IMG/VR virus record: IMGVR_UViG_3300027710_000072
Span: 1 to 36,046 of that record
Length of the DNA: 36,046 nucleotides
Reading direction: 5' to 3' (one strand)
Source: a virus
Below are positions 1,571-25,955 of the stretch, one piece after another. Every line of letters starts with the position of its first letter. Positions within the stretch are counted from its first letter, which is position 1. The notes under the pieces were generated by a model. The model was not told the origin of the DNA, ran no database searches, and saw only the letters and a list, made by a program, of their open reading frames with translations. Both the position numbers and the translations under genes were made by a program.

Positions 1571-1646
1571 TGTGTCTGGAGCGAATTCCAGATGGATGAC
1601 GAAGAGGGTTGAGTTCCTAGGACAAAAAGCCCGTTCTCCAGACACA
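1571..1646 (+). ncRNA. Structured 5' leader RNA closed by an 11-bp stem
   Basis: TGTGTCTGGAG (1571-1581) is perfectly complementary to CTCCAGACACA (1636-1646). Inside, GGGTT (1606-1610) can pair with AGCCC (1628-1632). A competing hairpin, CTGGA (1576-1580) with TCCAG (1587-1591), would break the outer stem, so two states are possible. The stem starts at the predicted +1 and ends about 10 nt before the ribosome site of the gene at 1670. No known riboswitch class was matched by eye. Confidence 0.6.
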
Positions 1647-4948: not shown

Positions 4949-5184
4949 TGTCAGAAGAACTAAACGAAGAAATGCCACCACAACCACAAATCCATTACTT
5001 TGCTATGGACGGAAATTATGGAAGTGCTGATGGGATTGTCCTTTGCCAAACCCAATTTTGGACAGAGGAAGATTGGGCAGAGGTTGAGAACTGCACAGAC
5101 AGCGAGAGAGGCAATAAGGCAGTAGAAGTCTCTCGTCAGTATGGCAATCTCTTGATGGATTTACCTGACCAAGATACGATTTGA
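4948..5184 (+). CDS. 78-residue acidic hypothetical protein
   Basis: ATG 4948 overlaps the preceding TAA by one base (TAATG), so it is probably translationally coupled. The product is acidic with conserved-looking segments YFAMDGNYGSADGIV and FWTEEDWAEVENC. The stop overlaps the -35 of the next promoter. The function is unknown. Confidence 0.75.
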   Translation: MSEELNEEMPPQPQIHYFAMDGNYGSADGIVLCQTQFWTEEDWAEVENCTDSERGNKAVEVSRQYGNLLMDLPDQDTI

Positions 5185-13687: not shown

Positions 13688-13923
13688 TGGACGAGATAAA
13701 TCTTTCAAGAACAGTAATGTTTGTTGGCGATTACTTTACGCTAATGACGACTATCGTTCTTCATAATGAATTGCGGAACGAAGGAGAGAGCGATAACGAC
13801 TTCGCTATTCGTTGCGCTTCTATCTTTATGGAAGAATACTATGGGTTTGATGTTGCCAAAGTATCTAACGACATTGGTGTCGTAGATGAAAATGGAGAGG
13901 AGATAGAAAATGACGACGACTAA
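13687..13923 (+). CDS. 78-residue acidic protein
   Basis: ATG 13687 overlaps the preceding TAA by one base. The product has a hydrophobic helix (SRTVMFVGDYFTLMTTIVL) and an acidic C-terminus (ENGEEIENDDD). It overlaps the next gene by 14 nt. The function is unknown. Confidence 0.73.
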   Translation: MDEINLSRTVMFVGDYFTLMTTIVLHNELRNEGESDNDFAIRCASIFMEEYYGFDVAKVSNDIGVVDENGEEIENDDD

Positions 13924-15353: not shown

Positions 15354-15929
15354 ATGACGACTATCGCTGGAGTGCAAGGGGAGAACTGGGCTGTCGTCGG
15401 ATATGACTCACGAGTAACCGAAGAAAACGAAAAGATTTACTCACTTCCAAAAGATAATGGCAAGATGTTCAAGAACGGGAACTACATCATTGGCGTTGCT
15501 GGAGATGTTAGAGCGATAAATATTCTTTGCTACATATTCAAACCGCCCGTCATTAGCCCCTCAACCTATGGTCTAAGGTTAGACAAATTTATGACCGCTT
15601 CCTTTATCCCCGAGATGAAGAAATGTTTTGAGGAAAACTCTTACTCTAAAGACGGCGACAACGATAGCAATATTATGGTTGTAATCAACGGGACTATCTA
15701 TGAGATAGGCAACGACTACTCTTGGGCTAGAGATGAAAGCGGTATCTACGCTATCGGAACAGGTTCTTCCTACGCACTTGGTTCTTTACTTGGAACTATG
15801 GAAACCCGTAAAAGAACTTTATCTACGGCTAAGACTTTGGTTAGACAAGCCCTAACTATTGCCACGAAACTTGACCCGAACTCTGCCCCACCGATTTACA
15901 TAAATGTTCAGTATTACGGGGAGAAGTAA
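15354..15929 (+). CDS. Proteasome-beta/HslV-like N-terminal nucleophile hydrolase
   Basis: The 191-residue protein starts MTTIAGVQGENWAVVGYDSR. Taking T2 as the catalytic threonine exposed after Met removal, D18 corresponds to Asp17 of proteasome beta subunits, and K37 (in GKMFKNGNYIIGVAGD) is a good match for Lys33 with a short insertion. IYAIGTGSSYALGSLLG (about 131-147) matches the family's G-S/T-G-S-x-Y-A-x-G motif. This suggests a self-assembling threonine peptidase with no visible propeptide. Ribosome site GGGAGAGAAGAAG. R1 copies lie directly before and over the end of the gene. Confidence 0.85.
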   Translation: MTTIAGVQGENWAVVGYDSRVTEENEKIYSLPKDNGKMFKNGNYIIGVAGDVRAINILCYIFKPPVISPSTYGLRLDKFMTASFIPEMKKCFEENSYSKDGDNDSNIMVVINGTIYEIGNDYSWARDESGIYAIGTGSSYALGSLLGTMETRKRTLSTAKTLVRQALTIATKLDPNSAPPIYINVQYYGEK

Positions 15930-15986
15930 AAAGTAAAAACCTGCGCTCGCCGGCGTTCGCTGCGGGGGCAACTTCCAAATAACTTT
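15926..15986 (+). repeat. Composite R1-GC spacer-R2 element
   Basis: R1 (15926-15940) contains the stop codon of the hydrolase gene. About 30 bp of GC-rich sequence with CGCCGGCG follow, then R2 (ACTTCCAAATAACTTT, 15971-15986). The promoter at 16008 lies downstream. Confidence 0.75.
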
Positions 15987-16007
15987 GGCGTGTCGTGCCT
16001 AGAGGAC

Positions 16008-16035
16008 TTGACTTTTCTTGTTAGTTTGTTATACT
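16008..16035 (+). promoter_or_regulatory. Promoter of a structured leader
   Basis: TTGACT at 16008-16013, 16 bp, TATACT at 16030-16035. Predicted +1 is 16042, one base before the 11-bp stem. Confidence 0.72.
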
Positions 16036-16042
16036 TATGCTA

Positions 16043-16121
16043 ATTCGGTAGGGGAAAGTCGCTGGACACCTGAACGCTTTTAACTTGCAAGGGGCGGAAA
16101 CAATACGACTCCCTACCGAAT
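16043..16121 (+). ncRNA. Structured 5' leader RNA closed by an 11-bp stem
   Basis: ATTCGGTAGGG (16043-16053) is perfectly complementary to CCCTACCGAAT (16111-16121). The helix continues past a 3-nt bulge with AGTCG (16057-16061) and CGACT (16106-16110), 16 bp in all. An inner CGCTTTT/AGGGGCG stem is possible. The layout matches the leader at 1571 (11-bp closing stem at +1, about 75-80 nt, micro-gene operon downstream), but the inner sequences differ. No known riboswitch class recognised. Confidence 0.65.
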
Positions 16122-16145
16122 CTAACTACTAGCAAGGGGAGCAAG

Positions 16146-16256
16146 ATGAAGATTTCAACAAAGGCAAAGTGTGTCGAGTGCTCGCGGGTATTCGATTTAC
16201 TAAACGACAATGACGCTAATGAGTGGGCGTATGGACACGACTGCGAGGTGGAGTAA
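16146..16256 (+). CDS. 36-residue CxxC micro-protein
   Basis: ATG 16146 follows AAGGGGAGCAAG. The product (MKISTKAKCVECSRVFDLLN, then YGHDCEVE) has C-x2-C plus HDC, a possible single zinc knuckle. It overlaps the next start by one base (TAATG). First gene behind the structured leader. Confidence 0.65.
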   Translation: MKISTKAKCVECSRVFDLLNDNDANEWAYGHDCEVE

Positions 16257-16582
16257 TGGTTGATTACAGTTTAGTAGAAGAAAGAGTGAAAGACGCAAAG
16301 GCTATTGCTTTTGATACTTGCCACAAGATTTACTTGTTAATGGATGATGAGCAGGTAGAAAAAATGCGTGAGTATGGATACGACCCATTAGTAACTAGCG
16401 CGGAAGCAGACCCCGACCTAATGCTAGAAATGCTAAAGGACTGGTATGAAAGTTCTTGCAACCTTAGATTTATTGACGCGGTAAGCACACACCCAACAGA
16501 CCCGAACTTAGGATTTGAAACTCTCATAGGGCAGGGCGAAAACTTTCAAGATGATGAGGAAGATTTAGAGGAAGAAGATTAA
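16256..16582 (+). CDS. 108-residue acidic protein
   Basis: ATG 16256 in the TAATG overlap is preferred over the in-frame start upstream at 16223. The product is helical and ends in an Asp/Glu tail (FQDDEEDLEEED). No family is recognised. Second gene of the 16008 operon. Confidence 0.73.
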   Translation: MVDYSLVEERVKDAKAIAFDTCHKIYLLMDDEQVEKMREYGYDPLVTSAEADPDLMLEMLKDWYESSCNLRFIDAVSTHPTDPNLGFETLIGQGENFQDDEEDLEEED

Positions 16583-18810: not shown

Positions 18811-18863
18811 GTTTTTACTTTTTACACGCTCCGGCGTTCGCCTCGCCTCAACTTCCAAAAGTT
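18811..18863 (+). repeat. Composite element with R1 reversed
   Basis: The gene-free stretch 18720-19115 starts with a terminator, then R1 reversed (GTTTTTACTTTTTAC, 18811-18825), a GC-rich spacer and a diverged R2 (ACTTCCAAAAGTTATCC, 18851). R1 here shares an ACGCTC extension with the copy at 24247. Confidence 0.65.
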
Positions 18864-25921: not shown

Positions 25922-25955
25922 GTTTATTTCTCTCCACCCCCTGTGCGGTGTCTAA

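Follow-up and report, generated by a model that had tools for sequence, protein, structure and literature searches.

A conserved promoter-proximal RNA with a variable palindromic loop in uncultured phages, a candidate for homodimerisation by loop-loop kissing

A structured RNA element begins at a predicted phage promoter

The element analysed here lies in a 36-kb virus record in IMG/VR, the whole 36,046-nucleotide stretch of which is called the window, between a protease gene and a gene for a CxxC micro-protein (Table 1). Direct reading of the sequence revealed an inverted repeat at 16043-16121, in which ATTCGGTAGGG (16043-16053) pairs with CCCTACCGAAT (16111-16121) and an inner stem, AGTCG (16057-16061) with CGACT (16106-16110), encloses 44 nt (16062-16105). 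The stem-loop is real, and its letters agree with the original prediction of an 11-bp stem, a GAA bulge, AGTCG/CGACT and 44 enclosed nucleotides. The same prediction had the helix starting one base past the transcription start, and the TTGACT-16-TATACT promoter indeed places +1 at about 16042. Note that about 1.3 promoter-type matches were expected by chance in the searched region. In most of the 38 distinct homologues a -10-like hexamer was also present 5-8 nt 5' of the stem.

The minimum free energy (MFE) of the region was -33.6 kcal/mol, compared to -22.3 +/- 2.8 kcal/mol for the shuffled sequences (z = -4.0; 0 of 200 shuffles as good), and the reverse strand folds with a similar score, as expected of any inverted repeat. 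Inside the closing helices P1 and P2, the RNA carries a hairpin, P3, and two segments, UGGNCACCUGAACG and CGGAAACAA, whose unpaired or never-varying positions are invariant or nearly so. The first of these segments holds a mini-hairpin, GG (16064-16065) with CC (16069-16070) around an NCA triloop, and has one exception in a single member, L095, with A rather than C after the N. Since the GG/CC pairs never vary, the mini-hairpin has no covariation support. The third pair of P3, 16077-16094, is A-U, C-G, G-U or U-A across the homologues. A hammerhead-like reading of CUGAACG...CGGAAAC was rejected, since the hammerhead consensus is absent from this core, which also has no evident arrangement for a cleavage site, and so was a resemblance of GAAAGUCG..CACCUGAA to 16S rRNA, the GAA part of which is not conserved.

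Two short repeats were also observed in this DNA. With at most 1 mismatch, AGTAAAAAGTAAAAA has 20 copies in the window compared to 0.01 expected, often just after genes. They are mostly on the + strand (e.g. at 110, 3697, 9162, 11055, 14272, 15314, 15925, 16902, 18201, 19955 and 23901), with - strand copies from 18.8 kb on (e.g. at 18812, 24248, 25992 and 26469), and the sequence is also repeated in the relatives L017, L025, L120 and L123. The second repeat, AACTTCCAAAYAACTTT, was found with at most 1 mismatch at 469, 15970, 16947 and 18248 (+) and at 25955 (-), and at 9 window sites when 2 mismatches were allowed (0.02 expected). It precedes several promoters by some tens of bases, among them that of the RNA described here, and is possibly a regulator site.

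Table 1. Features of the RNA locus and of the second leader in the window
Feature	Position	Strand	Remarks
Family B leader RNA	1571..1646	+	Separate structured family; CCUAGG palindrome 1616-1621
HslV/proteasome-like protease gene, immediately upstream	15354..15929	+	Pfam Proteasome; PHROG HslV
Promoter: -35 TTGACT 16008-16013, 16-nt spacer, -10 TATACT 16030-16035	16008..16035	+	Predicted +1 ~16042
Structured RNA element (family A)	16043..16121	+	R1 covariance model match 16041-16123, 103.6 bits
P1 5' arm, 11 bp, partner 16111-16121	16043..16053	+	Compensatory change in 10/11 pairs
GAA bulge	16054..16056	+	Sequence variable; CUA, CCA and others in homologues
P2 5' arm, partner 16106-16110	16057..16061	+	Compensatory change in 4/5 pairs
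Core UGGNCACCUGAACG, nearly invariant	16063..16076	+	Holds mini-hairpin and start of P3
P3 hairpin, 16075-16079 with 16092-16096	16075..16096	+	Third pair 16077-16094 varies
Palindromic apical loop CUUGCAAG	16084..16091	+	Hexamer UUGCAA 16085-16090
Invariant core CGGAAACAA	16095..16103	+	Homologue alignment
P2 and P1 3' arms	16106..16121	+	CTAA next in 26/38 distinct homologues; CTAAC here
36-aa CxxC micro-protein gene MKISTKAKCVECSR..., first downstream gene	16146..16256	+	Shine-Dalgarno-like AAGGGG 16134-16139

The fold is conserved among related phages

Relatives of the element, which we call family A, were recruited by pattern and model. An exact search with a partial stem gave one relative, a gapped core pattern gave 23 contigs, and further core patterns gave 48, 20, 13 and 67 contigs, partly overlapping. 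A covariance model built from 17 gap-free sequences (R1, alignment A4) confirmed 41 matches, 36 of them distinct, every one with E < 1e-9. Ten of the pattern matches (L004, L007, L008, L035, L038, L039, L043, L049, L057 and L060) lie inside unrelated sequence and were discarded as chance. Family A comprises about 50 IMG/VR contigs (36 distinct sequences), in records of 9 to 161 kb, many of which are fragments. Each phage record searched holds one copy, with the sole exception of G028 (locus L069), which has two, at 4954-5037 and 13791-13872, with the palindromes CTGCAG and GCATGC. Downstream of one of these L069 copies come a GGAGAGAG...CTCTCTCC hairpin and then a new TGATATAAT promoter.

The original prediction depended on the fold persisting in homologues, and the fold held. 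In the larger family A alignment 96.8% of the cells were paired, the covariation score was 0.653, compared to 0.205 +/- 0.012 for shuffled alignments (0 of 500 as high) and to 0.09 to 0.15 for slid controls, and 18 pairs had changed on both sides. In support of this, a gap-free MAFFT alignment made with no model fitting gave 97.6% paired cells and a covariation of 0.477, compared to 0.166 when shuffled. The homologue cells include 42 G-U but 7 A-C combinations, which indicates that the + strand RNA is what selection acts on. Judging by these patterns of change, family A is almost certainly a conserved functional RNA.

The family does not correspond to a described RNA in Rfam 15, which gave 0 matches for the whole window at the gathering score, 0 for 15930-16260 at E <= 10 and 0 in six homologous loci; Rfam searches with both window leaders and several homologues, at gathering and permissive thresholds, also returned nothing relevant. 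Among cultured phages, no family A relative was found by blastn with the region and two divergent cores, nor by model checks of Actinomycetia phage DSL-LC01, Pumpernickel, Mimi and Sixama. The R1 model and the exact core pattern found the element in 0 of 396 sampled Actinomycetota genomes. An exact-pattern scan of GTDB, with a pattern that spans only the C-type third of the members, gave 5 matches (L063-L067); none exceeds 17.4 bits, and they look like chance rather than members. The nearest cultured relative of the window's portal protein is that of DSL-LC01, from Dishui Lake (75% identity), followed by those of Microbacterium phages, and judging by this protein the lake phages that carry family A would be actinophages.

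The genes downstream of the RNA are interchangeable

The element had been described as lying ahead of a CxxC micro-protein operon. This is correct in this phage (ORF 16146-16256) but does not extend to the family: clustering of the first proteins encoded downstream of 39 elements gave 19 clusters, a small one of which includes the CxxC micro-protein. Since this gene is swapped among phages, we rejected the RNA as a regulator of the CxxC gene; a coding explanation was rejected too, since the loop variants have no common reading frame or start codon. Downstream genes this interchangeable suggest that the RNA is not serving one gene. Moreover, the next gene has its own promoter, placed between it and the RNA, in five distinct loci (L003, L012, L069a, L079 and L085), and in L017 a new promoter follows after one small gene. 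As a point against a separate noncoding RNA, most loci have no clear terminator 3' of it; in L069a a hairpin and then a weak U-run follow the RNA, and in L079 and L085 U-runs lie directly 3' of P1 and overlap the next -35. The swapped genes and the separate promoters make it fairly likely that the function of family A is independent of the downstream gene. Upstream, 32 of the 40 phage loci have a relative of the HslV/proteasome-like gene, at a median distance of 109 nt from the element, and this conserved neighbour probably reflects shared ancestry of that part of the genome.

Such gene arrangements bear on the roles that a structured leader may have. A riboswitch or metabolite aptamer would explain the 5'-UTR position and an invariant junction core sized like a small aptamer, but it is very unlikely here: the genes that follow share no function, there is no evident alternative pairing of the kind a switch would use, Rfam gave no match, and there are the two-copy and separate-promoter cases. 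Since the genes lack a common function, aptamers for different ligands, also raised by the original prediction, are not favoured. Processive antitermination, in which the RNA would act on RNA polymerase from the nascent leader as HK022 put does, agrees with a structured RNA at the +1 of a phage promoter that is indifferent to the downstream gene. However, there is little to antiterminate when another promoter follows at once, as in the five loci, or after one small gene, as in L017, and nothing in this mechanism calls for a palindromic loop. We consider it most unlikely.

The main rival to the dimerising RNA proposed below is a generic leader acting in cis, the others being less likely. Here the stem at +1 would block 5'-end-dependent decay or set a ribosome standby site, and the palindrome would be secondary. 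The element is at +1, the next start codon, which has a Shine-Dalgarno-like sequence, is usually 13-36 nt away, and variable downstream genes are compatible with a generic leader. Since this 13-36 nt gap is seen in most phages, a cis effect on the next gene is also plausible. As a full explanation, however, the generic leader appears rather unlikely: the element is nearly always single copy, in records of up to 160 kb, though other promoters lack a leader of this kind; for stabilisation alone an invariant core and a self-complementary loop would be superfluous; and in the five loci mentioned above a new promoter separates the RNA from the next gene.

The apical loop changes but remains self-complementary

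P3 is tipped by some 4 loop nucleotides (NNAA) and a segment of 8 nt, at the centre of which the distinct members carry one of seven hexamers: TTGCAA (11 members), TCTAGA (10), CCTAGG (9), GCATGC (2), TCTAGG (2), GCTAGC (1) or CTGCAG (1). Six of these forms are perfect palindromes, and the seventh, TCTAGG, is self-complementary via G-U. This palindromic loop, the most telling feature of the element, is absent from the original prediction. Overall, the hexamer is palindromic in 94% of the distinct family A members, compared to at most 14% for the other 6-nt windows of the alignment, which never showed more than one kind of palindrome. As in loops of the type of the retroviral dimerisation initiation site (DIS), a self-complementary loop of at least 6 nt is maintained as its sequence changes. 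Note that the hexamer was absent from every search pattern and that its two inner pairs were absent from the R1 model, so the palindromicity is no product of the search or of the alignment.

The bases next to the centre of the dyad covary (U-A 22, G-C 12, A-U 2). Since neighbouring bases cannot pair within one strand, the pairing under selection in the loop would be intermolecular or, with lower probability, a feature of the DNA. The second of these options, in which the palindrome would be the operator dyad of a dimeric phage regulator placed inside the transcribed region, would suit six perfect dyads that vary among phages, as regulators of different specificity might require. But the dyad coincides precisely with the tip of an RNA hairpin that has a covarying, G-U-rich stem, and its flanks, AA on the 5' side and GG on the 3' side, are conserved yet asymmetric, which makes a DNA site improbable. 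In terms of energy, the predicted self-duplexes of the loops range from -8.6 to -14.3 kcal/mol, and two six-base palindromes of retroviral type gave -7.9 and -10.9 kcal/mol.

The hexamer also switches between near-identical phages. Flanks were compared by blastn. In 28 pairs of distinct elements a flank reached 85% identity or more across at least 150 bp, and 10 of these pairs had differing hexamers. In one pair both flanks are alike (85% and 91%, about 600 bp), yet TTGCAA is replaced by TCTAGA; L054 and L142, the longer locus of the L084 contig, have an identical P1/P2 5' arm, with TCTAGA in one and CCTAGG in the other. The loop thus changes as a block and keeps its self-complementarity, although these changes are few, with seven forms, and kinship among the members is only partly controlled. 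Such block switching among close relatives would also be expected if the loop kissed another host or phage RNA of the same or complementary sequence, self-complementarity being a by-product, and CCUAGG is present in a second RNA of these phages, family B (see below). However, an outside target would not force a palindrome in every version, and the family A loop differs from CCUAGG in 8 of the 8 records that also hold family B; we regard this reading as quite improbable. Given how the loop varies, the family A RNA probably homodimerises by loop-loop kissing.

A second leader RNA is found in some of the same phages

A similar layout had been claimed for a leader at 1571, and this was borne out: the RNA there is closed by a stem at +1 and has two hairpins, a short one and one with a palindromic tip. 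This family B leader starts just past a promoter and precedes unrelated genes. It is present in 8 records, the models R2 and R3 matching seven further phages beyond the window, all of which also carry family A, about 11-15 kb apart where positions were compared. P1 of family B is 95% paired, with 12 pairs changed on both sides (0 of 500 shuffles), and its second hairpin has CCUAGG in every member whose sequence was read.

The suggestion that the two leaders form one class stands in part. Each is an RNA with a conserved fold and the plan is shared, but the models fail to detect each other's element: R1 with filters off had no match to 1571-1646, and R3 matched only its own element in the window and not 16043-16121. 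The invariant cores of the two families also differ. Families A and B are alike in layout, a likeness by analogy that does not show common descent. The loop of family A is CCUAGG in 0 of 8 phages with family B, compared to 11 of 37 (Fisher one-sided p ~0.08, relatedness ignored). This avoidance, together with the two differing palindromes of G028, hints at loop types that do not cross-react, and is not significant alone.

Discussion

We favour, on balance, a model in which family A is a phage-specific noncoding RNA made from the +1 of a sigma70-type promoter and able to homodimerise by kissing of its palindromic loops. The position at the promoter, the fold of the + strand, the core and the self-complementarity of the loop are established by sequence comparison. 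In the proposed mechanism, the RNA would be transcribed from that +1 and its long closing stem at the 5' end would make it stable, while two copies would kiss via 6-8 bp, like the dimerisation loop of retroviral genomes. The invariant core may be the part that does the work, probably by binding a protein or ribonucleoprotein of the host or the phage. Since the next gene is freely swapped and sometimes has its own promoter, the RNA would act independently of it, in trans or else in the manner of a generic leader. Dimerisation would make this activity dependent on RNA concentration and specific to the loop type.

A much less probable extension is that family A is a self-recognition RNA, whose loop would be a fast-changing type label pairing only with copies of its own type. 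Such an RNA could signal superinfection or incompatibility, or could sense concentration inside an infected cell, and family B could then be a second, non-cross-reacting channel. The loop switches in 10 of 28 pairs, the G028 palindromes and the avoidance between the A and B loops are consistent with this extension but not conclusive.

Many loop sequences that are always self-complementary would be the signature of an RNA homodimer in the evolution of a tiny phage RNA. Functional RNA homodimers are seldom documented (PMC7357161). Since an RNA of about 80 nt is easy to transcribe, its dimerisation, loop specificity and partner are quickly testable. Moreover, little is known of how uncultured actinophages take over their hosts, and family A, present in many phages presumed to be of this kind, offers a way to study this. 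Should the loop indeed be a type label, it would represent a novel means of self/non-self discrimination in phages.

Several known RNAs share some of these features. The put RNA of HK022 is a structured RNA located right after a phage promoter; we know of no relation between it and family A in sequence or model, and unlike put, family A has a gene arrangement that gives no call for antitermination. Guanidine-II and other riboswitches have small hairpins in the 5'-UTR that are able to kiss through palindromic nucleotides (PMC7357161). Unlike guanidine-II, family A lacks tandem hairpins and a function conserved in the genes downstream, and its palindrome is a hexamer rather than a dinucleotide. 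GOLLD, ROOL and OLE are homo-oligomeric noncoding RNAs of phages and bacteria, of unknown function, with intermolecular contacts conserved by covariation (PMC12286853). They have several hundred nucleotides or more, are often near tRNA islands and form complex multimers, whereas family A has about 80 nt, opens a promoter transcript and would use a palindrome.

The pRNA of phi29 is a phage RNA that multimerises by pairing between loops, which vary in sequence but stay complementary. These loops are mutually complementary and not palindromic, and they serve a packaging motor of the phi29 type; in contrast, family A is located among small genes in tailed phages, apparently actinophages, whose portal protein belongs to another family. 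The phi29 pRNA is also mentioned in PMC7357161. Finally, as regards the retroviral loops, family A, like the HIV-1 DIS, has a purine-flanked six-base palindrome in the apical loop of a 5' leader. The DIS palindrome varies by strain (GCGCGC, GUGCAC) and its self-complementarity is kept. In HIV-1 the apical loop with its 6-nt palindrome lies beside conserved unpaired purines in the 5' leader (PMC7357161). Unlike the DIS and the palindromic kissing loops of the oskar 3'-UTR, family A belongs to DNA phages and its dimer is a prediction from sequence. Also unlike the DIS, its loop is borne on an arm of a multi-branched RNA whose junction core is invariant, and has at least seven forms.
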